Virus record (IMG/VR): IMGVR_UViG_3300045996_001004
Span: 1 to 32,415 of that record
DNA: 32,415 nucleotides
From: a virus
Reading direction: 5' to 3' (one strand)
Under the pieces are notes generated by a model, which was given only the letters and a program-made list of their open reading frames with translations, ran no database searches and was not told the DNA's origin. Positions 2,746-22,871 of this stretch are shown piece by piece. The stretch's first letter is position 1. Each line of letters starts with the position of its first letter. The translations under genes and the position numbers were made by a program.

Positions 2746-3120
2746 TCACTGGTAATCTGTTTCCGGTGCTTCACCTTCCGTAACAGCGTCTTCGTCCTCA
2801 CCCGAAAACTCTGACATCTCTGCTTCGGTAAAGGAACACGAGGCAACTTCACCTTCGCGGTGCGCTTCGTCTTCACGAGCTTGGTCCTCCACGTCCTTTG
2901 CCGTAATCAATCTGTTGAAAATCTCTGTGACACGCAATCTGAACTCGATTGCAGCGTCAACCACGTAAGCCTCTGACGGATCTTCTCGCTTCAGCTTCTC
3001 CAACTCAGCGTAATGCACGGGAGATAACCTCAAGCAATCACTAACATCCACACCCTGTTGCATGGCATGGAACAGTGAGCGAGCCTCGACCATTGCATCA
3101 TGTTCTACGCTGTTTGGCAT
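2746..3120 (-). CDS. Hypothetical acidic protein, 124 aa
   Basis: A helical, strongly acidic protein. Its last 35 residues are Glu/Asp-rich (SEFSGEDEDAVTEGEAPETD). I chose the ATG at 3120 because GGGAG lies five bases upstream. An in-frame GTG at 3132 would place that site inside the gene. The preceding 42-aa gene ends two bases upstream, so the two are probably coupled. The acidic tail resembles DNA-mimic or chaperone-like phage proteins, but there is no family match by eye. Confidence 0.78.
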   Translation of the reverse strand: MPNSVEHDAMVEARSLFHAMQQGVDVSDCLRLSPVHYAELEKLKREDPSEAYVVDAAIEFRLRVTEIFNRLITAKDVEDQAREDEAHREGEVASCSFTEAEMSEFSGEDEDAVTEGEAPETDYQ

Positions 3121-7709: not shown

Positions 7710-8292
7710 ACTCCGTAGGTTCGTACTTGATTAGCGGCCCGTCTGTAATCGTCAAGCCGCCTGCACTGATACCCAGATCGGGACCGTCAACGGGAATCTC
7801 CTGATCGGGTGTGATTGTCTTGCGGGTGTCTAGTCCGACGCTCACGCTACCTTCACGTTTAAAGTTACGTGCAGCGTGTGTTTCGTTGGAGAACGGGTTA
7901 CCACGGCGTAACAGCGTCCGATCACCGCGCCACGTCATACGTTGATCCGTTACTTCCACAATCGCCCCGGTAACACGGTCGATCTGTTTACCGTGGATTG
8001 CTTCCGTTTCCATCGGTGCCCGCCGACGTTCTAGCCCTTGTTGCTGAGTGACCGACCGACGGGGCACTATGTGTGTGTCCTCGTGTTCCTCAACTACGGA
8101 ACAATCGAACAGTTTCGCGGCGTCTACCAGTCGGGCCGTGGTACTGGTGCCGTGTCTGCTATGGGTATGTCCCAAGTGTGTACCGGACGGCAAGCCGCCG
8201 ATCTTGCTGTGTATGTCGTGCAATCGTTCGCGCTCGTGCTGAGTCAGGCGGCGATTGCTACCGCCACGTTTGCCACGTTTGCCGTTACTCAT
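7708..8292 (-). CDS. Hypothetical protein with C-terminal ISAGGLTIT motif, 194 aa
   Basis: I recognise no family. The first 45 residues are very basic and Gly/Arg/His-rich (SNGKRGKRGGSNRRL). The middle is charged, with a TQQQGLERRRAP stretch, and the C terminus is strand-like. Residues 175-183 read ISAGGLTIT and are followed by exactly 11 residues. The same nine residues, also 11 from the end, occur in the 213-aa protein at 8832-9473, transcribed in the opposite direction. It is the leftward gene of the divergent pair and has its own terminator. No close ribosome site is seen (GGGAG is 16 bases away). Confidence 0.75.
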   Translation of the reverse strand: MSNGKRGKRGGSNRRLTQHERERLHDIHSKIGGLPSGTHLGHTHSRHGTSTTARLVDAAKLFDCSVVEEHEDTHIVPRRSVTQQQGLERRRAPMETEAIHGKQIDRVTGAIVEVTDQRMTWRGDRTLLRRGNPFSNETHAARNFKREGSVSVGLDTRKTITPDQEIPVDGPDLGISAGGLTITDGPLIKYEPTE

Positions 8293-8316
8293 GGTTGTGT
8301 GAGTGATGCTCCCGGC

Positions 8317-8336
8317 GTGGGATGGTGTGATGGATG
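8317..8336 (+). repeat. Dispersed 20-base repeat, copy 4
   Basis: GTGGGATGGTGTGATGGATG, matching the consensus except at the end. It lies just upstream of the leftward gene's start. Confidence 0.7.
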
Positions 8337-8678
8337 CTCCCCGGGCATAGCTCGCGCTACGTTACAGGGGGGCGCGGGTCGCAGCCGGGGTGCCCGTCGA
8401 GGGGCGCGAAGTGGAACCCGGCGAGAATCGCACGGCTCGGCCCGGCCGTCAAGCGGTCCCGCCCGGTTTTTCGACCGGCCCGCGAAAAAAAGTTTCGTCC
8501 ACTTTTCAGGACACCCGGCAGGCGGGCAGCGCTGGACCCCACACGCGCCACGATGCCCCGTAAACCGCTCAGGATGGCTCAGGACGCGCGAACCGGCCCC
8601 GGTGCGGTGTCTAGCTCCCCCCGTCTTGTGCGCCGTTCCTGCGGCCCGTGGCTCGGTCGGACTCGGGGACGGCTGAGC

Positions 8679-8698
8679 GTGGGATGGTGTGACGGGTT
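8679..8698 (+). repeat. Dispersed 20-base repeat, copy 5
   Basis: GTGGGATGGTGTGACGGGTT, one change from consensus. It is followed by a hairpin, a T-run and a promoter, the recurring cassette order. Confidence 0.75.
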
Positions 8699-8700
8699 CA

Positions 8701-8735
8701 GCCCCGCTATGCATAGGGGCGGGCGGCGTGTTTTT
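8701..8735 (+). terminator. Possible weak terminator
   Basis: GCCCC...GGGGC (8701-8720) with an inner TATGCATA palindrome is followed 10 bases later by TTTTT. The spacing is long for a classical terminator, so the call is tentative. Confidence 0.35.
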
Positions 8736-8739
8736 CCAC

Positions 8740-8769
8740 TTGACGGCCCCGGCCCACTGTCTGTAAGCT
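8740..8769 (+). promoter_or_regulatory. Promoter of the 213-aa gene
   Basis: TTGACG and TAAGCT are separated by 18 bases. The TAAGCTGGCG end is identical in the promoter at 10993-11021, which strengthens the call despite a weak -10. Confidence 0.5.
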
Positions 8770-8831
8770 GGCGGGGACAAGACAACACGGCGCAATCGAG
8801 CGCCATCACACAACGTCAACAGCGAGGCAGT

Positions 8832-9473
8832 ATGAGCAGAGACAAAGGCAAGACGAACGGCGGCAACGGAGCGGTAGCGGACGCTATCAACAAGGCGATG
8901 GCTGACGCGGCACAGAACACGGCGGCGGTCGTGGACACGGGCGGGGACGTGGACCTGTCCGCACTCGCGGGGATCGGCTCGACCGACGAGGACACCGAAG
9001 GCGCGGGCGCCACAACGGACGATGACGATCTGGACCCGAACGCCAACGTGTGGGATCGGCTGATTCAGGGCTGGAGCTTCGCCCCGGCAGCGGCCCGCCC
9101 CTTCGACAACGAGAAGAAAACGCAGCGGACGCAGAAGATCGCGGACGTGACGGTGTTGCTGCGGGGAGGCTTCGGGTACGTGCCGGGAGCGGTGAAGCTG
9201 GTGCAGGCGCTCGTCAACGGCGCCCCGCACGGGGAAACGATGCTCGATTTCAATTTCTTCTCGTCGCTCACGAGCACGGCACTCCGCCCCATCACCGACC
9301 GCGCCAAGGTGGATCTCGTCCTGATGCGTCAGCGCATCGCGGCGGATTACCTGAAGTGGCGGGAGGCCAACCCACAGGCGGCAATCGCCACGGCCCGCGC
9401 CGAAACGCGCATCTCGGCGGGCGGACTCACGATCACGATGCCGGAACCCGCGAAGCCTGCGGCAACGGCCTAG
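8832..9473 (+). CDS. Hypothetical protein with C-terminal ISAGGLTIT motif, 213 aa
   Basis: Not recognised. Residues 1-75 are polar and acidic, ending in a TTDDDDLDPN run. Residues about 75-190 are likely folded, with aromatic strands and a final helix (AKVDLVLMRQRIAADYLKWREANP). Residues 194-202 are ISAGGLTIT, with 11 residues after them, as in the divergent 194-aa protein. I start at the ATG at 8832 (GAGG five bases upstream, downstream of the promoter). The frame is open far upstream only because of GC bias. A strong terminator follows at once, so it is a single-gene unit. Confidence 0.8.
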   Translation: MSRDKGKTNGGNGAVADAINKAMADAAQNTAAVVDTGGDVDLSALAGIGSTDEDTEGAGATTDDDDLDPNANVWDRLIQGWSFAPAAARPFDNEKKTQRTQKIADVTVLLRGGFGYVPGAVKLVQALVNGAPHGETMLDFNFFSSLTSTALRPITDRAKVDLVLMRQRIAADYLKWREANPQAAIATARAETRISAGGLTITMPEPAKPAATA

Positions 9474-9482
9474 CTCGACTGA

Positions 9483-9517
9483 ACCGGGATCACCTTGGCG
9501 GGTGGTCCCGGTTTTTT
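9483..9517 (+). terminator. Rho-independent terminator
   Basis: ACCGGGATCACC pairs over 12 bases with GGTGGTCCCGGT around loop TTGGCG and runs into TTTTTT. Confidence 0.92.
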
Positions 9518-9540
9518 CGTTTGTACGGCGCCCGTGCTGC

Positions 9541-9671
9541 ATAAGTAAATTTACTTACGGGTTACGTAATCGGTCCACTTACGTAAGTTGTCCAGATACG
9601 TAAACGGGCAGGTTCGCGCACCCGTAAGCCGTTGTAAGTGAACCGCTTACGTAAGTGGCCAGAAGTTTACG
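9541..9671. repeat. Cluster of TTACGTAA-type palindromes
   Basis: Within 130 bases lie TAAGTAAATTTACTTA (9542-9557), TTACGTAA (9562-9569), ACTTACGTAAGT (9577-9588), TACGTAAAC (9597-9605), CCGTAAGCC (9622-9630), TTGTAAGTG (9632-9640), GCTTACGTAAGT (9645-9656) and AGTTTACGC (9664-9672). All are built on the half-site GTAAGT/ACTTAC. It may be a multi-operator region or an iteron-type origin. Confidence 0.7.
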
Positions 9672-9769
9672 CCCGCCACCTGAACCGGGCAAGCGGAAAC
9701 TGGACCGTTCCGGTATGTAGCCGATTCATACACGGTGTGAATGCTCCCCGAACCCGGCCATATTCGCCC

Positions 9770-9789
9770 GTGGGATGGTGTGATGGGTT
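9770..9789 (+). repeat. Dispersed 20-base repeat, copy 6
   Basis: Perfect copy of GTGGGATGGTGTGATGGGTT, followed by TTTTCCCGG and a hairpin. Confidence 0.75.
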
Positions 9790-9971
9790 TTTCCCGGCAT
9801 TTCGGCGGGTTTTCGGGTTTTTGCCCGATGGCACGGCCTGTGAAGTGTGGGAGGCGGGGCAGTGTGCGCCGTGGTAACGGTGCGGTCCGAACTGCTTGAC
9901 CGTGGTTGATGGGCTGAGCCGGGTGCTACGCTGCCCCGTTGGGCAATTCAGCCCGCTAGGAGGTTGTATCT

Positions 9972-10622
9972 ATGCCAGAAGTGACCCTCGAAACCCTGAA
10001 CGCCGCTGCCAAGCGGCAGGTGCTGGCGCTCCGGCGTCCCGTAATGGATGCGGCGCGGCAATTCGGGGCGGTGCGGGAACGGCTCTCCGACTTGGCCCCC
10101 AAGATCGTGAAGCTGTTCAACATGATCCTCGCGGACAACGAAGCATTCACGTTCGTTTCGTTCGTCCGGCTGTTCGATCCCACGGTCCCCACGCACGCGG
10201 CGGACCGGAACGGCGAGACAGGTTACCGGAATCACCGGACCTACTACACCCTCGCATACATGCGCCGTCTGGTGCAGTTGCAGGGCACCCGGCGGCGGAC
10301 ACCCGGCGGCGTACGGGACAGCGCAACCGATGCACTGGCGCGGACGTTGGCGACCGTGCTGCAAGTGGTCGAGGACTCGGAAGCCGTGTGGCACGCGATT
10401 CAATCCGAGTTTCAATTCACCGAACGCCTGATGACGCGGTTGCGGAAGCGGGTAGACGCAACCAAGCCGCTGATCCAGCTGGAGCCGACACGCCGCGCCA
10501 CGGTCAGCGTGGGCAAAGTGATCCATATGGAGCGGACGGAACCCACGCAAGCGGAAGCGGCCCAGGCCGACACCATCGAGGCCGACACACGCGGCACACG
10601 CAAGCGGGCACGTGCAGCGTAG
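9972..10622 (+). CDS. Hypothetical protein, 216 aa
   Basis: Not recognised. It is largely helical and Arg/Ala-rich: an N-terminal helix pair (LNAAAKRQVLALRRPVMDAA), a hydrophobic core near residues 40-70 (KLFNMILADNEAFTFVSFVRL), and a basic C-terminal tail ending RGTRKRARAA after an acidic TIEADT stretch. AGGAGG lies eight bases before the ATG, one of the best ribosome sites in this block. It lies immediately right of the palindrome cluster, so a DNA-binding or replication-initiator role is worth testing, but no helix-turn-helix is evident by eye. It ends in TAG. Confidence 0.78.
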   Translation: MPEVTLETLNAAAKRQVLALRRPVMDAARQFGAVRERLSDLAPKIVKLFNMILADNEAFTFVSFVRLFDPTVPTHAADRNGETGYRNHRTYYTLAYMRRLVQLQGTRRRTPGGVRDSATDALARTLATVLQVVEDSEAVWHAIQSEFQFTERLMTRLRKRVDATKPLIQLEPTRRATVSVGKVIHMERTEPTQAEAAQADTIEADTRGTRKRARAA

Positions 10623-10713
10623 CGCGGCCCAACTCGACGCCGGGGCAGGTTCGTAAGCCTGTCTCGGCGTATCTCTCACCCGTTGACGCGACACATAACG
10701 AACCGAGGCACCT

Positions 10714-10920
10714 ATGGTGATGCGTGACGAGAGTTCCCCTTTACATGAACGGCTGTCCAAGCTGCTGGATCAACAGCACCGCACCCCGGACGGGCGGGTG
10801 CAATGCTGCGAATGCCCACGGGCGGCAGTAGAACGGAGCACCGACGATCAACAGGTCCGCTGCCGGGACTGTTGGGAGCGGCACCGCTTGCGGTTTCGAC
10901 GGGTAGACCGGCGCGTGTGA
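10714..10920 (+). CDS. Small zinc-ribbon protein, 68 aa
   Basis: Two C-x2-C pairs (CCEC at about residues 31-34 and CRDC at about 50-53) flank an 'ERSTDDQQVR' linker. The tail is Arg-rich (ERHRLRFRRVDRRV), the usual layout of a small nucleic-acid-binding zinc ribbon. GAGG precedes the ATG by five bases. The stop TGA lies within a dispersed-repeat copy. Confidence 0.75.
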   Translation: MVMRDESSPLHERLSKLLDQQHRTPDGRVQCCECPRAAVERSTDDQQVRCRDCWERHRLRFRRVDRRV

Positions 10921-10932
10921 CGGTGGGATGGC
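10915..10932 (+). repeat. Dispersed repeat, divergent copy 7
   Basis: GTGTGACGGTGGGATGGC overlaps the stop codon of the zinc-ribbon gene and is followed by a GTGTGGGG/CCCTACAC hairpin (10936-10959) and then a promoter. Confidence 0.5.
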
Positions 10933-10935
10933 TCT

Positions 10936-10959
10936 GTGTGGGGATCTGCGACCCTACAC
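10936..10959 (+). terminator. Hairpin, possible weak terminator
   Basis: GTGTGGGG pairs with CCCTACAC (eight pairs, one G-U) around ATCTGCGA. There is no immediate U-run, so termination is uncertain. Confidence 0.35.
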
Positions 10960-10992
10960 GGGGCCGTTTCGTCTGTACGGGTATGTTTTTTG

Positions 10993-11021
10993 TTGACTAC
11001 TTACGTAAGTGGGCATAAGCT
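10993..11021 (+). promoter_or_regulatory. Promoter with operator palindrome in its spacer
   Basis: TTGACT, 17-base spacer, TAAGCT. The spacer contains the perfect 12-base palindrome ACTTACGTAAGT, so a bound regulator would directly cover the RNA polymerase site. Confidence 0.65.
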
Positions 11022-11374
11022 GGCGCGGGCAGCATACACACGGCGGACGGCAAGGCAAACGGAGTGCTGCGGGCGCACCGGCAAGCTAGCACAGGACTGT
11101 GCACAGCCTAGAATCCGGTCTTTCCCCGCGCACCACTAACGGAGGCCGCGCTATCCGCTTCGACACGGGGCGAGGATCAGGAACCAAGAGGCGGGATCGG
11201 GTACCGGGGCCGGATGCATACGGCGTCGGTCTGCCCCAAGCCGCTGCGGTAAGACGCTCCCCCGTGTCACTGCCCCTTGTTTGTCGGCCCGCTTCCGTAG
11301 CCAGAGGCTAACCAAAGTAGCTGCAACGTAGCGAAACGGGCGGGGCGGGCCTTTTTTCGCTAGGAGGTCACGTT

Positions 11375-11743
11375 ATGCGATGTGCAATTTGCGGCGGCAG
11401 CGGACCGGATCGGGATCTGCGGATGGTCGTCCGGGACGATTACGAGGCGGTACAAGGCACGTATCCGCCGGATGTGATCCACAACCCGGAACACGCGGCA
11501 GCACTGGGCCGGATGTGCGGGCTACTGGATCGGCTGGTCGATCCGTTGGCGCGGGTGGAGTGCAAGCCGTGCCGGGTTCAGCAAGCACGGGAGCGGGAGG
11601 CCGAGGCACGGGAACACGCCGAGGCGCGGGGCGAGTACGACGGGGAAACGTTGGGGCGGACGTATCACGATGTAGTGCAGCGGTCCCGGCTCCGGGTGCT
11701 GCGGGCACACCTCGTGCGGCTGTATGGCTCACGGGTGCATTAA
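11375..11743 (+). CDS. Zinc-ribbon/coiled-coil hypothetical protein, 122 aa
   Basis: C-x2-C pairs occur at the N terminus (RCAICGG) and near residue 64 (ECKPC), followed by a long Arg/Glu/Ala helix (QQAREREAEAREHAEARGEY) and a basic end. The first pair resembles the knuckle of HNH-type or zinc-ribbon proteins, but the catalytic HNH residues are not evident. AGGAGG lies seven bases before the ATG. It is the first gene of a run of overlapping small genes to 12535. Confidence 0.75.
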   Translation: MRCAICGGSGPDRDLRMVVRDDYEAVQGTYPPDVIHNPEHAAALGRMCGLLDRLVDPLARVECKPCRVQQAREREAEAREHAEARGEYDGETLGRTYHDVVQRSRLRVLRAHLVRLYGSRVH

Positions 11744-11760
11744 GGGGGAGGGATCAGACC

Positions 11761-12012
11761 ATGCGGCTACTACACCCGTTAGCGTGCCCTGAGCACGGGT
11801 ACCAACGGCTGGAAACGTGTGACATTTGCGTAGACGCCGCGCACCGGGAGCGGCAACTACAGCACTCGGAGGGACCGAATCAAAAAACACTCTGCGGCCT
11901 GCCGGTAGCGATGGCGGTCACCGGCCCGGTCCCGGCAGACTGGGCACGCTGCGGCGACTGTGACCGCTTGGCGAAGCTGCGGGAGGTAAGACAGGCGGTG
12001 GGCCATGTTTAA
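11761..12012 (+). CDS. Small cysteine-rich protein, 83 aa
   Basis: It contains C-x2-H (CPEH), C-x2-C (CDIC), a lone LCGLP and CGDC near the C terminus, which is enough for one or two zinc sites. GGGAGGGATCAGACC precedes the ATG, so the ribosome site is good. It overlaps the next gene by eight bases. The segment between the knuckles, ending TGPVPADWARC, is seen in small actinophage zinc proteins; that likeness is only an impression. Confidence 0.7.
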   Translation: MRLLHPLACPEHGYQRLETCDICVDAAHRERQLQHSEGPNQKTLCGLPVAMAVTGPVPADWARCGDCDRLAKLREVRQAVGHV

Positions 12013-12211
12013 CGTGCCCCACTACAGCATCATCAGAGCCACTGACGGGCGGACCTTTGGTTACTCCCTGCACGGTGACAGCGCTAGTGATTTGGCACGG
12101 GGGCTGAGCCTGTATTACCCAAACGTGGCCTTTGTCGTCTACCGGCACGGCGGCACAAGCCCCAAGGCGATAGCGTTTCGCGCCGTCAATGGACGGTTAC
12201 AGCAATCTTAG
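12005..12211 (+). CDS. Hypothetical alpha/beta protein, 68 aa
   Basis: Strand (HYSIIRATDGRTFGYSL), helix (SASDLARGLSLYY), strand (VAFVVYRHGG) and a final strand make this a small compact alpha/beta protein. It starts inside the end of the preceding gene, a translational coupling arrangement, and ends in TAG. No motif is recognised. Confidence 0.7.
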   Translation: MFNVPHYSIIRATDGRTFGYSLHGDSASDLARGLSLYYPNVAFVVYRHGGTSPKAIAFRAVNGRLQQS

Positions 12212-12220
12212 GGAGGCATC

Positions 12221-12346
12221 ATGTTGGACCGGTTACGGGACGGTTACACCCGGTTTCTCATGCGACGGATGGACCGCTGCCAAACAGAGCGCGGCTTACG
12301 GTTCTGGGAATGGATCGCAGTGCATACCACGGCGGCGGATTACTGA
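12221..12346 (+). CDS. Small basic protein, 41 aa
   Basis: GGGAGG four bases before the ATG opens a 41-residue peptide with basic, Arg-rich helices (LDRLRDGYTRFLMRRMDRC) and a Trp-containing second helix (LRFWEWIAVH). It ends in TGA. The strong ribosome site and close packing between genes support it. Confidence 0.6.
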   Translation: MLDRLRDGYTRFLMRRMDRCQTERGLRFWEWIAVHTTAADY

Positions 12347-12361
12347 CGGGGAGGTGAGCGT

Positions 12362-12535
12362 ATGGATAAGCGGCAAGCCGTCAAGCTCACGATCACGGTA
12401 AGCGGTGAAACTGACCGAGACCCGTGGGAATGGGCGGAAGGAATCGCCCGATCCTTAGCGGATGATTTGAACGCCGCTAACGGGGAGGGATGGCCCCCGA
12501 TCACTGTCGAAGCGACTGACGCTGAACCGGTGTGA
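12362..12535 (+). CDS. Hypothetical protein, 57 aa
   Basis: GGGGAGGTGAGCGT precedes the ATG. The protein has a strand (AVKLTITVSGET), a helix (EWAEGIARSLADDLNAA) and a second strand (ITVEATD), suggesting a small beta-alpha-beta fold. It ends in TGA inside a dispersed-repeat copy, and a terminator follows. Confidence 0.65.
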   Translation: MDKRQAVKLTITVSGETDRDPWEWAEGIARSLADDLNAANGEGWPPITVEATDAEPV

Positions 12536-12547
12536 TGGTGGGATGCT
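12530..12547 (+). repeat. Dispersed repeat, divergent copy 8
   Basis: GTGTGATGGTGGGATGCT overlaps the stop codon of the 57-aa gene and lies directly before the terminator. Confidence 0.5.
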
Positions 12548-12549
12548 TT

Positions 12550-12580
12550 GGACCGGCCCTAGTGGTCGGTCCGTTGTTTT
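12550..12580 (+). terminator. Rho-independent terminator
   Basis: GGACCGGCC pairs with GGTCGGTCC (one G-U) around CTAGT and is followed by GTTGTTTT. Confidence 0.75.
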
Positions 12581-12596
12581 GTACGGCGGTTTTAAG

Positions 12597-12625
12597 TTGA
12601 CTACTTACGTAAGTGGGCGTATTCT
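12597..12625 (+). promoter_or_regulatory. Promoter with operator palindrome in its spacer
   Basis: TTGACT, 17-base spacer, TATTCT. The first 16 bases of the spacer, including ACTTACGTAAGT, are identical to those of the promoter at 10993-11021, so the two units are co-regulated. Confidence 0.68.
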
Positions 12626-12672
12626 CGCGGCGCGGCCGTTTCACACACACAAGCGGCCCGGAGGATACCGAC

Positions 12673-13017
12673 ATGCAGAATGCAGACGTGAGACAAGATC
12701 CGGCGACGACGCCCGTAAGTTTCTTGCGGGACGGGTACGGCAACCTGATCGAGCGGTTCGAGCGGGACGGGATCGTAGACGTGCGGGTAACGCTCGCGGA
12801 CCGGATCGAGCGGGCCATCCTGCCCAACGATCACGAGATGCGGGAACGGTGCAAGCTGACGGTCGTGCGGTGGTACTGGCGCCGGGTGGGAGTGCTGCCG
12901 GAGTCGCCCGCCGATGCCCTGCCGGATGAGGCGCCCGAGTCCAACGCCCACCGCCGCGAGTGCGAGCACGGGTACACGTCCAACTGTCGGGCCTGCAACC
13001 CGGACGGGCCGTTCTGA
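12673..13017 (+). CDS. Hypothetical protein with C-terminal CxxC-type knuckle, 114 aa
   Basis: I start at the ATG at 12673 (GGAGG eight bases upstream, downstream of the promoter). The frame is open upstream but that part would overlap the promoter. The body is charged and mixed, with FLRDGYGNLIERFERDGIVD and a VVRWYWRRVGVLP segment. The last 20 residues (CEHGYTSNCRACNPDG) form a C-x-H/C-x2-C knuckle likely to bind zinc. It overlaps the next gene as TGATG. Confidence 0.72.
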   Translation: MQNADVRQDPATTPVSFLRDGYGNLIERFERDGIVDVRVTLADRIERAILPNDHEMRERCKLTVVRWYWRRVGVLPESPADALPDEAPESNAHRRECEHGYTSNCRACNPDGPF

Positions 13018-13292
13018 TGGCGGCGCGGAAGCGGATCGGGTTCGTGGCGGCGCCCCGTGTCGGCTCGGGTTACTGGCTGCACTACACAGCCCCGGAGCGC
13101 GAGGACGACGGGCAGGGGGCCGTCGTCGGGCACGAAGAGCGGATTCACTACTGCGCCACGCTGCGGATTGCCAAGCGTAAAGCTCACCGGGTGATGGCGG
13201 ACCCCGAGGTGACGTGGGCGACCATCACGAAACCGCTGTTTCACGTCCGCAGAATGCCCTACAGGGCACGCAAGCGGGCAAGGAAAGGGTAA
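13017..13292 (+). CDS. Basic hypothetical protein, 91 aa
   Basis: The ATG overlaps the upstream stop (TGATG). The protein is beta-like at first (IGFVAAPRVGSGYWLHYT), contains an acidic turn (EREDDGQG) and ends in a strongly basic tail (MPYRARKRARKG). It may bind nucleic acid. Not recognised. Confidence 0.68.
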   Translation: MAARKRIGFVAAPRVGSGYWLHYTAPEREDDGQGAVVGHEERIHYCATLRIAKRKAHRVMADPEVTWATITKPLFHVRRMPYRARKRARKG

Positions 13293-13295
13293 GGC

Positions 13296-13391
13296 ATGGT
13301 CTATCTCGTCGCGGCGCTGGTGTGGCTGATAGCGGGCGGCGTGTTTGCCTCCGTTTTCGGTCGCGTGGCAAAAACCTACGGGGGAGACTGA
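13296..13391 (+). CDS. Single-pass membrane peptide, 31 aa
   Basis: A 31-residue frame starts four bases after the previous stop, with AAAGGGTAAGG upstream. It is mostly one hydrophobic helix (VYLVAALVWLIAGGVFASVF) followed by GRVAKTYGGD, so the C terminus is probably cytoplasmic. It is small but well packed between genes. Confidence 0.55.
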   Translation: MVYLVAALVWLIAGGVFASVFGRVAKTYGGD

Positions 13392-13396
13392 CACCC

Positions 13397-13612
13397 ATGC
13401 TCTACGGCATCGCACTCGGACGGCTCTGTATGCCGGTGGAATACATCCGCCAGCTACCCACCGCACTAGCCGGGAAGCACCTGATCGGGATTGCGACCAC
13501 GGTAGAAGACCTGATGACTGCTCAGGCGCGGGCGGCACGCTTGGCCCGGCCGATTAACACCTACACTCGCGTTACACCCCACGGCACCCTGCACGGCATC
13601 TATCGGCGGTAG
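13397..13612 (+). CDS. Hypothetical protein, 71 aa
   Basis: GGGGGAGACTGACACCC precedes the ATG. The protein is mixed alpha/beta: GIALGRLCMPVEYIRQL, then a helix rich in Ala/Arg (DLMTAQARAARLARP) and a strand end (YTRVTPHGTLHGIYRR). Not recognised. It ends the run of small genes before a 458-base gap. Confidence 0.65.
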   Translation: MLYGIALGRLCMPVEYIRQLPTALAGKHLIGIATTVEDLMTAQARAARLARPINTYTRVTPHGTLHGIYRR

Positions 13613-13827
13613 CTGGCCTACAGACCGCCCTGCAAGTTTGCTCCCCGGCAGCTAGCAATCCCGCTAGCACCCCCACGGCTCGGCCTCACGGTCAGCCACA
13701 CTCGCAGGTGAGGGGGCCGGGGAGCATCCCGCCTGTACGGCCTCACCACGCGCCCGTAAGCCGCACCACGCGCCCGCCAGCGGTCCCGGTTGCCCTTTGC
13801 TGGCTCGCCTTGAGCGGCTCAGGTCCG

Positions 13828-13847
13828 GGGGGATGGTGGGATGGCTT
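13828..13847 (+). repeat. Dispersed repeat, divergent copy 9
   Basis: GGGGATGGTGGGATGGCTTG, related to the consensus mainly in the GGATGGTG core. Confidence 0.4.
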
Positions 13848-13907
13848 GGGGCAGGGGGCCGGATGGCTGAGCCACACGCGCAGGCCCGGTTTTGTTGGGG
13901 TTTTCGG

Positions 13908-13927
13908 GTGTGATGGTGTGATGGGTT
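13908..13927 (+). repeat. Dispersed 20-base repeat, copy 10
   Basis: GTGTGATGGTGTGATGGGTT, one change from consensus, about 100 bases before the promoter candidate. Confidence 0.7.
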
Positions 13928-14011
13928 CACGGGGGGATCAAGATGGCCGGGTGTGCGGGCCGTGCTGCTCGACAATTCTGCCCGTTTCGGGAAGCGGACA
14001 AGTGTTTTTCC

Positions 14012-14039
14012 TTGTGTTTTTGCATGGTTTGCGTATCAT
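14012..14039 (+). promoter_or_regulatory. Promoter candidate for the ATPase operon
   Basis: TTGTGT, 16-base spacer, TATCAT (five of six). The upstream GTGTTTTTCC matches the stretch before the promoter at 8740. GACTACTTAC, a single operator half-site, lies just downstream at about 14047-14056. Confidence 0.45.
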
Positions 14040-14070
14040 CTGATCTGGACTACTTACAAGGGAGCTGCTG

Positions 14071-14223
14071 ATGTGGAACGTCTTTTGGTCGTATCCGGGT
14101 GGCGGGCGCGAAGCGTGGGCGTGCTGTGCGAAGAAACGGGACGCCGAGGTAATCGCGGCGTTGCTCAGGGATCATGGTTGCGCGGACGTGCGGATCGTTC
14201 GCTATCAGAAAGGGCGTGCGTGA
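14071..14223 (+). CDS. Hypothetical protein, 50 aa
   Basis: AAGGGAG lies seven bases before the ATG. The peptide resembles a small beta-alpha-beta unit (NVFWSYPGGGREAWACCAKK, then a helix RDAEVIAALLRDHGC and a strand VRIVRYQKG). It ends in TGA overlapping the ATPase start (TGATG), so the two are translationally coupled. Confidence 0.7.
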   Translation: MWNVFWSYPGGGREAWACCAKKRDAEVIAALLRDHGCADVRIVRYQKGRA

Positions 14224-15326
14224 TGACTGGACAGGATTTGCTGACACAGTGGACGGCGTTCATTCGACAGTACGTGTATTGCTCGCAGGCGCAAGGCATG
14301 GTCCTCGCGTTGTGGGCTATGAACACGTGGGTGTATGAGCATTTCGCGGCGGTCCCGTACCTGGAGATTGTTGCGAGGACCAAGGAGAGCGGCAAGACAA
14401 CGGTGTTGGATGTGCTCAAGATGCTTTGCCGAGGCCCGGAGAAGTTTGCGATTGTCCGGGTGCTGACGATCCTGCGGATGATTGAAGAGTCCGAGGGGAA
14501 GATCACGATCTTGATTGATGAGGCGGAACAGTTCAGCAAGCCGTCATTGGGCGAGACTCGGAGCGGTATCGCGACGGGTTACAAGCCGGGTGCTCAGCAC
14601 GCTATCAGCGTGGGCAAGGGCTTTCAGCGGTTCAGGACGTATGCGCCGTGGGCGTTCGCGCAGATCGGCAACGTGCATGATGTGTTGCGGTCGCGGTGCA
14701 TCGAGATCATGCTGGACCGGGGCAAGCCGGAGCGGTACTTGATCGATTACGAGATGTCCGCTAAATCGGACGCTCAAGAGCTTGTCGTACAGTTCGTGCA
14801 GTTCGCCCGGTCCAAGGTGAAAGACGGCAAGATGCACATCCCGATTATCCCGGCTGACTGGCTCACGAGCGGCCGTGAGCGGGAGTTGTGGACGCCGTTG
14901 GTTTCGTTGGCCGGGTGGCTTGGGGTTCATGCCGATACCATGCGGCAGATACAGGCCGCAAGCGTAGACCTTGGGCTGCTCAAGACGCTACCGCCGATCA
15001 AGTGGCACTCGGCGCAAGACGAGGCCGATACCGAGGAACGGGATATGGCCGTCCGGCTGTTGCGGGATCTGGCCAGCGTGATTACGCCGGCTGACGAGGG
15101 CGTCATCTTCTCGCGTGATGCCGTGGAACGGCTCAGGGCTATCGACACGGCGCCTTGGCGTGGATGGCGTGGAACGGGCATCAACGAGATTGGGCTTGGC
15201 GCTCTGCTGCGGCGGTACGGGCTGGAGAGTGCAACGCAAAGCAAGGGCAAGGGACGCAAGGGGCGCGTGCAAGCGCAGGGCTACAAGACAGCGGAGATTC
15301 TTGCGGCGCGCAAGCGAGACGAGTAA
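14223..15326 (+). CDS. DUF3631-type P-loop ATPase (putative replication helicase), 367 aa
   Basis: A Walker A variant ARTKESGKTT sits at residues 51-60 and a Walker B ITILIDEAE at 94-102, followed by an IGNVHDVLRSRCIEI sensor-like strand. The C-terminal third (around LRAIDTAPWRGW...LGALLRRYGLES...QGYKTAEILAA) matches the pattern of DUF3631, a domain found in phage, plasmid and island primase-helicase proteins. No primase domain is fused here. The likely role is DNA unwinding or loading, which is inference. I start at the ATG overlapping the preceding stop. A strong terminator follows. Confidence 0.8.
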   Translation: MTGQDLLTQWTAFIRQYVYCSQAQGMVLALWAMNTWVYEHFAAVPYLEIVARTKESGKTTVLDVLKMLCRGPEKFAIVRVLTILRMIEESEGKITILIDEAEQFSKPSLGETRSGIATGYKPGAQHAISVGKGFQRFRTYAPWAFAQIGNVHDVLRSRCIEIMLDRGKPERYLIDYEMSAKSDAQELVVQFVQFARSKVKDGKMHIPIIPADWLTSGRERELWTPLVSLAGWLGVHADTMRQIQAASVDLGLLKTLPPIKWHSAQDEADTEERDMAVRLLRDLASVITPADEGVIFSRDAVERLRAIDTAPWRGWRGTGINEIGLGALLRRYGLESATQSKGKGRKGRVQAQGYKTAEILAARKRDE

Positions 15327-15352
15327 CAGAGTCCTCGGCGGCGCGACGTTTG

Positions 15353-15388
15353 GGCCGTTCCCGTGACTGGGGGCGGCCTTTTCTTTTT
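15353..15388 (+). terminator. Rho-independent terminator
   Basis: GGCCGTTCCC pairs with GGGGGCGGCC (two G-U) around GTGACT and runs into TTTTCTTTTT. It closes the GC-rich early block. Confidence 0.92.
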
Positions 15389-15531
15389 GTACTTGACTAT
15401 CATTCAGAACCGTGCGCCACTTCCGGCCATATGACTTGAGCGACAGGGGAAAATCGGGGGGCGGGGGGAGTCACGTACGTGGCACGAGCGGGTTTTCTAA
15501 AATTTTAAAAATACAAATTTTCAGTATTCGC

Positions 15532-15560
15532 TTGACTTTTCGACGGAAATATGCTAGGCT
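15532..15560 (+). promoter_or_regulatory. Late promoter candidate
   Basis: TTGACT, 17-base spacer, TAGGCT, with TG one base before the -10 (extended -10 type). An AT-rich stretch lies upstream. It is well placed to drive the terminase-portal operon. Confidence 0.6.
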
Positions 15561-15637
15561 TTCTGAATTAAGTTCCAATCCCGGCAAGCAATCCTGTTTC
15601 TGGTGTTGGGACTCCGGTGTGAAGGTAATCTTATTTC

Positions 15638-15661
15638 AGTGTACTGTACAGTGTACTGTAC
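15638..15661. repeat. Tandem 12-base repeat
   Basis: AGTGTACTGTAC occurs twice in tandem and the junction forms the perfect palindrome ACTGTACAGT. It lies about 80 bases downstream of the late promoter and could be an operator for a dimeric regulator. Confidence 0.6.
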
Positions 15662-15713
15662 GCTCTCGCCTTACGGCCTGCGTTAGTGTGCCACTTCTTA
15701 CCACGGCACTAAC

Positions 15714-22719: not shown

Positions 22720-22795
22720 ACGCGAGTAGCTCAGAGAATAGAGCACCAGTCCTCAAGACTGGGGGTCGGAGGTTCAATTCCTTCCTTGCGTGCCA
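22720..22795 (+). tRNA. tRNA-Trp-like with anticodon UCA (opal-reading)
   Basis: The cloverleaf is complete: acceptor ACGCGAG/CTTGCGT, D stem GCTC/GAGC, anticodon stem CCAGT/ACTGG, T arm GGAGG-TTCAATT-CCTTC and encoded CCA. The seven-base loop is CCTCAAG, so the anticodon is UCA, which reads UGA. A1-U72 and discriminator G73 match bacterial tRNA-Trp and the arm resembles it. Position 33 is C instead of the usual U, and C32 can pair with G38. The D loop lacks GG. Charging and suppression are inferred. Confidence 0.8.
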
Positions 22796-22796
22796 T

Positions 22797-22871
22797 GCGT
22801 GGGTAGCTCAGTGTTTAGAGCAGCCGGTTTTAGCCGGAAGGTCGTAGGTTCAAATCCTACCCGACGCTCCA
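22797..22871 (+). tRNA. tRNA with a six-base anticodon loop (Lys(UUU) or UUA)
   Basis: Acceptor GCGTGGG/CCGACGC has one mismatch. The D stem GCTC/GAGC and T arm GTAGG-TTCAAAT-CCTAC are good, and CCA is encoded. The anticodon stem CCGG/CCGG encloses only TTTTAG. Depending on which position is missing, the anticodon is UUU (Lys) or UUA (which would read UAA). Confidence 0.7.

Follow-up and report, generated by a model that had tools for sequence, protein, structure and literature searches.

A probable multi-operator array of palindromic sites, with matching sites in predicted promoters, in an unclassified tailed phage

The window, i.e., the whole stretch of DNA analyzed here, is the 32,415-base virus record IMGVR_UViG_3300045996_001004, which comes from an unclassified tailed phage. 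The direction of the genes switches at about 8.3 kb, with leftward genes to the left of this point and rightward genes to the right, and a large terminase is encoded among the rightward genes from about 15.8 kb on. Related terminases are carried by seven viral contigs. The relatives discussed below include a 99.8-kb contig (G001, comprising the pieces L009 and L016–L020) and a 13.8-kb fragment (L004, also denoted G002); the window and L004 are fragments rather than whole genomes. The window, G001 and L004 all encode a 216-aa orphan protein and a protein containing the DUF3631 domain, in the same gene order. In the window, both genes are located inside a block of about 62% GC (positions 8000–15400) with flanks of about 50% GC, and a block of the same composition (about 62% vs about 50% in the flanks) is found at the same place in G001 (L009 3000–9000). 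Elsewhere (pieces L016–L020), G001 codes for a Ro60/TROVE protein, an HU-like protein, DNA polymerase A, endonuclease VII, an RNA ligase, an RlaP-type RNA-repair domain and a polynucleotide kinase-phosphatase domain.

The region between the genes for the 213-aa and 216-aa proteins (Table 1) contains, at positions 9541–9671, a dense cluster of GTAAGT/ACTTAC half-sites that had been noticed in a sequence-only reading of this DNA. The cluster is confirmed and well beyond chance expectation, being the densest 131-nt stretch of half-sites in the window, although the original count of at least eight is not reproduced: only five half-sites are exact (starting at 9553, 9577, 9583, 9634 and 9651), and there are ten when up to one mismatch is allowed. 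Among 300 shuffles of the whole window, the maximum per 131 nt is three exact half-sites and nine with one mismatch; for shuffles of the 8–15.4 kb block, the respective maxima are two and six. The sequence TTACGTAA is present in three copies in the cluster and five in the window, compared with 0.34 per shuffle. The cluster begins 27 bases past a 15-pair terminator-like hairpin, in accord with the earlier estimate of about 25 bases after a strong terminator, and it does precede the gene for the 216-aa protein but is not adjacent to it, the start codon being 300 bases away. Only weak promoter-like sequences overlap the array, and a putative weak promoter of the 216-aa gene is located near 9906–9932.

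Within the cluster, there is a 17-bp register that the sequence-only reading missed. Autocorrelation peaks at 17, 34 and 51, and Tandem Repeats Finder reports a period of 17 at 9562–9607. The register is occupied by four 16-bp palindromes with the consensus CCACTTACGTAAGTGG and one base between neighbors; their centers, at 9565.5, 9582.5, 9599.5 and 9650.5, correspond to 0, 17, 34 and 85 bp, each of them a multiple of 17, whereas the slot at 51 is empty and the slot at 68 holds a half-site only. Dyads of at least 11/16 occur about 1.7 times per shuffled 7.4-kb block, with a maximum of three within 131 nt. As for the full palindromes, of which the earlier description gives three or four, the cluster contains a single full ACTTACGTAAGT (9577), in addition to GCTTACGTAAGT at 9645. 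Outside the cluster, the window contains two copies of ACTTACGTAAGT, at 10999 and 12603. A literature search found no occurrence of this core operator, and scans of viral contigs for TTGACTACTTACGTAAG or for two copies of TTACGTAA 17 bp apart return isolated matches in unrelated contigs, at approximately the chance level. One of the scan matches, in L030, is promoter-like and was rejected as having no relation to this phage.

Table 1. Predicted features in and around the palindrome cluster
Feature	Position	Strand	Remarks
213-aa protein, upstream of the array	8832..9473	+	weakly conserved in G001
Intrinsic terminator-like hairpin, closing the transcription unit of the 213-aa gene	9481..9514	+	15 pairs, T tail
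ATAAGTAAATTTACTTAC, 18-bp palindrome family, same half-sites rearranged	9541..9558	.	recurs at the homologous place in G001
Predicted operator 1, CGGGTTACGTAATCGG	9558..9573	.	11/16
Predicted operator 2, CCACTTACGTAAGTTG	9575..9590	.	15/16
Predicted operator 3, CCAGATACGTAAACGG	9592..9607	.	12/16
Half-site GTAAGTGA, on the 17-bp grid	9634..9641	+
Predicted operator 4, CCGCTTACGTAAGTGG	9643..9658	.	15/16
216-aa orphan protein, candidate regulator	9972..10622	+	conserved in G001 and L004
Predicted promoter P1, TTGACT-17-TAAGCT	10993..11021	+	predicted operator 10997-11012 in spacer, operator score 25.1
Predicted promoter P2, TTGACT-17-TATTCT	12597..12625	+	predicted operator 12601-12616 in spacer, operator score 25.1
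Possible half-site CTACTTAC, leader of the DUF3631 gene	14050..14057	.	read from sequence, weak
DUF3631 protein, RepAM-type initiator candidate	14223..15326	+	Pfam E 1.8e-14
Tandem 8-mer (GTGNNNNG)x2, window	4697, 6987, 7690, 8317, 8679, 9770, 10915, 12530, 13828, 13908	+
Tandem 8-mer (GTGNNNNG)x2, relatives	G001 81043-86846; L004 1387, 2486, 3023; L008 176, 211, 269	+

Elsewhere in the window, the 16-bp site is found at the 15/16 level at only two positions, 10997 and 12601, in both cases as CTACTTACGTAAGTGG, and both copies are located in the spacers of predicted promoters, P1 and P2 (Table 1). Permissive sigma70-type scoring of both strands of 8201–15400 ranks P2 first (15.2) and P1 second (12.9) among sigma70-like promoters; the promoter matrix is E. 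coli-like and might not be that of the host, so that the argument is the ranking rather than the score. A stricter consensus scan likewise lists P2 (12597). When the 32 kb are searched with an operator matrix trained on these same six window sites (four in the array, P1 and P2), these are the only ones above 17 bits, the next best site scoring 12.7. Around the operator, P1 and P2 resemble copies of each other and therefore might not represent two independent cases.

The same matrix, which was trained without L004, identifies two outliers in that relative, CCGGTTACGTAACTGG at 1455 (21.2) and CCATTTACATAACCGG at 3104 (17.0), followed by a site scoring 10.0. The two outliers coincide with the two best promoters (1485 and 3107) of the scored L004 region, and the probability of both falling within 40 bases of the top promoters by chance is about 1e-4. 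The site at 3104 shares bases with the -35 box of the promoter preceding the DUF3631 gene, and the site at 1455 ends about 15 bases upstream of a TTGACTAC promoter. Although its training was independent of L004, this check is not completely blind because TTACGTAA at L004 1459, first spotted in a pattern search, had been seen before the matrix was built. Compared with the window, the site at 1455 carries a double change that is dyad-symmetric, as would be expected of a binding site with two-fold symmetry. G001 contains no ACTTACGTAAGT, and its DUF3631 promoter has only a weak site (86932, 10.7); at the homologous intergenic place in this contig, there is no array but a single 18-bp palindrome.

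The features that are read directly from the DNA, namely, the sites, their grid, the overlap with promoters and the matching sites at the promoters of a relative, are best accounted for by one regulator that would act at all the sites. Given the same site inside two of the best promoters, the cluster most likely serves in early gene control and not as an origin. With a probability of about two in three, it is an array of several operators for a regulator of the phage, which is probably a repressor and would also occlude P1 and P2. The sequence-only reading had proposed an origin or a master operator; the palindromes in the P1 and P2 spacers and at the best promoters of L004 favor the latter, in the form of a multi-operator region, whereas there is little to support an origin. 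Under the multi-operator interpretation, a dimeric, phage-encoded transcription regulator would bind the four abutting 16-bp operators of the array as well as the lone operator in the -35/-10 spacer of each of P1 and P2, where it would block RNA polymerase; in this way, two or more rightward early operons would be turned off. Lying between the terminator and the 216-aa gene, the array would be the site of highest occupancy, with neighboring dimers binding together, cooperatively, and could either control a nearby promoter or set the amount of free regulator. The finding is a genuine regulatory feature and, as an operator array, would represent a known kind of system in a poorly known phage group. 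If the interpretation is right, it provides a concrete circuit of early gene control, with named operators and promoters, for a group of phages known only from metagenome contigs, as well as a direct bait for finding the regulator of this group. The comparison with L004 further points to symmetric changes of the operator from one relative to another, which would offer a handle on the evolution of regulator specificity.

Among the known systems, the closest parallels differ from this array in distinct ways. The OR and OL regions of phage lambda, the targets of CI and Cro, consist of palindromic operators of about 17 bp that are arranged in a row in the early control region and overlap -35 and -10 boxes. 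Here, too, several similar putative palindromic operators are clustered (four dyads on the 17-bp grid, 9558–9658), and such operators overlap -35 or -10 elements at the predicted promoters P1, P2 and L004 3107. Unlike the lambda operators, however, those in the array abut, with one base between them, and further single operators are found in separate promoters kilobases away; moreover, the window and the families listed for G001 yielded neither a CI/Cro-like protein nor a lysogeny gene. No integrase is among the Pfam families listed for G001 (25 of 49 listed for one part), and HTH_3 is absent from this contig. In Cluster A mycobacteriophages (L5, Bxb1), the site of a single regulator is dispersed over the genome as 20–30 stoperators of 13–14 bp that lack dyad symmetry and are oriented along transcription, with a consensus that differs between related phages (PMC6550527). 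The sites described here are similarly present at several genome places, and their consensus shifts between relatives; they differ from stoperators, and do not belong to that class, in being palindromic, in their small number (only six strong ones in 32 kb) and in that these are all located in promoters or in one array.

The regular tandem repetition with a period of 17 is also reminiscent of the short, regular spacing of repeats in lambda and plasmid iteron origins, and the initiator protein of an iteron plasmid can additionally recognize palindromes in the promoter of its own gene. It is conceivable but unlikely that the cluster is an iteron-type origin, where a DUF3631 or 216-aa initiator would load the 17-bp repeats, open nearby DNA and repress promoters via the same palindrome. 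The DUF3631 protein is encoded 4.5 kb downstream of the array and has a predicted C-terminal winged helix; the model of its middle part is poor (pLDDT 57), with no significant fold match, and no relatives were found in species genomes. DUF3631 has been named RepAM, the initiator domain of actinobacterial integrative elements (PMC3218068). Given that a plasmid-type initiator domain with a predicted winged helix is encoded in the block, replication functions might well be located there, but several observations argue against placing them in the array. Although the GC-skew minimum is no more than about 1.5 kb away from the array, the minima coincide with the gene-strand switch in both the window and G001; because skew follows gene orientation, the skew profile, which the sequence-only reading had suggested as a check, was computed and does not discriminate an origin. 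The lambda origin is located inside the initiator gene O, where its four iterons are accompanied by an adjacent AT-rich tract (PMC7466680), whereas the array is intergenic, is not conserved at the homologous place in G001 and shows no separate AT-rich tract; among the 60-mers of the block, the array itself ranks in the top two for AT content (62% AT over the richest 60 nt, compared with 38% AT, i.e., 62% GC, in the flank 9672–9971). No exact DnaA box is present between 4.7 and 20 kb.

A further argument against an origin in the array is that another repeat family in the block fits this role better. A tandem 8-mer element occurs in ten copies in the window, six strong copies in G001, and three each in L004 and L008 (Table 1), with tetramers that are phage-specific (GGAT/TGAT, TTGC, CAAC and TTAC/TGAC); an exact copy of the window's element was not found in any other viral contig. 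These elements are always on the plus strand, whichever way the neighboring genes run, cluster around the divergence point, and in each of the four contigs include copies that precede the DUF3631 gene. The fixed orientation is more compatible with replication or packaging than with transcription. The tandem 8-mer family appears to be the better origin candidate in the block, possibly as an initiator-binding repeat, and might be the more unusual feature of this block.

Near the array, no gene product was recognized as a repressor or as a helix-turn-helix protein. The obvious first candidate for the regulator is the 216-aa protein, in view of its location and its co-occurrence with the block. 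Its sequence identity over the alignment is 60% with the G001 protein and 67% with that of L004, and outside these two genomes, no relatives were found in viral contigs, genome contigs, phages or plasmids. The protein shows no family match, and its structure model, of moderate confidence (pLDDT 68), yields no convincing fold match in PDB, the viral library or the VIA re-alignment. A more elaborate scenario, in which this orphan belongs to a lineage-restricted DNA-binding family, binds both the array and the promoter operators, represses from them and also helps to start replication, seems distinctly improbable. The best VIA re-alignment of the model is with Spo0J, but the Z score of 4.2 is far below the level that is meaningful for a helical model. 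Apart from this match, a centromere-like function, in which a ParB- or ParR-like partition protein would load onto the array, is suggested by the sites themselves, given that parS sites are 16-bp palindromes and that ParB/parS, Noc and KorB sites in general are ungapped palindromes of similar length. The sequence of the array sites differs from all of these, the ParB and KorB profiles have no match at E <= 10 in G001 or in the window and L004, the latter two being fragments, and the presence of the array palindrome inside promoters also speaks against a centromere, making this explanation very unlikely. That the inverted repeats act as an RNA or single-stranded DNA structure, such as an attenuator or a hairpin, is hardly credible: both strands of the array fold better than shuffles (z of -3.8 and -4.7), but palindrome copies pair with one another by construction, and the P1 and P2 palindromes are in the promoter spacers and therefore are not transcribed from those promoters.

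Apart from the array, the region contains other palindromes. A second type, AAGTAAATTTACTT, has the same half-sites in a different arrangement. The window carries it at 9543 and 15828, plus a copy with one change at 2518, and further copies are present in G001 (47172, 62114 and 83729), L004, L005 and L023; in the relatives, it is usually intergenic, at the 3' ends of genes, or immediately before a putative small-terminase gene. A scan of viral contigs for the 18-bp palindrome GTAAGTAAATTTACTTAC finds it only in G001 (two copies) and L023, as well as in two contigs in which it is apparently coding sequence. This second type may be read by the array-binding protein or by another one. In the promoter region upstream of the terminase genes, each phage has a different palindrome: TGTACTGTACA in tandem in the window (15544–15662) and L003, ACTTAC-N5-GTAAGT in G001 (L009 8972–9026), and a TTACTTTACATAAAGTAC palindrome in L008 (approximately 1780–1830). 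A TTTGTACGG-like sequence repeatedly follows intrinsic terminators in the window (at approximately 9519, 10975, 12578 and 15388) and also in L009, L004 and L008.

The window also encodes, at 22720–22871, a tRNA with the anticodon UCA, which reads UGA, next to a tRNA with an unclear anticodon. The UCA tRNA raised the idea of TGA recoding, which was rejected given that the large genes are open in the standard code; none of the 20 rightward window genes checked ends with a TGA stop, and no in-frame TGA recoding was seen. In G001, a tRNA with a UUA anticodon is predicted at L020 16347–16422, and the UCA- and UUA-anticodon tRNAs are possible nonsense suppressors.
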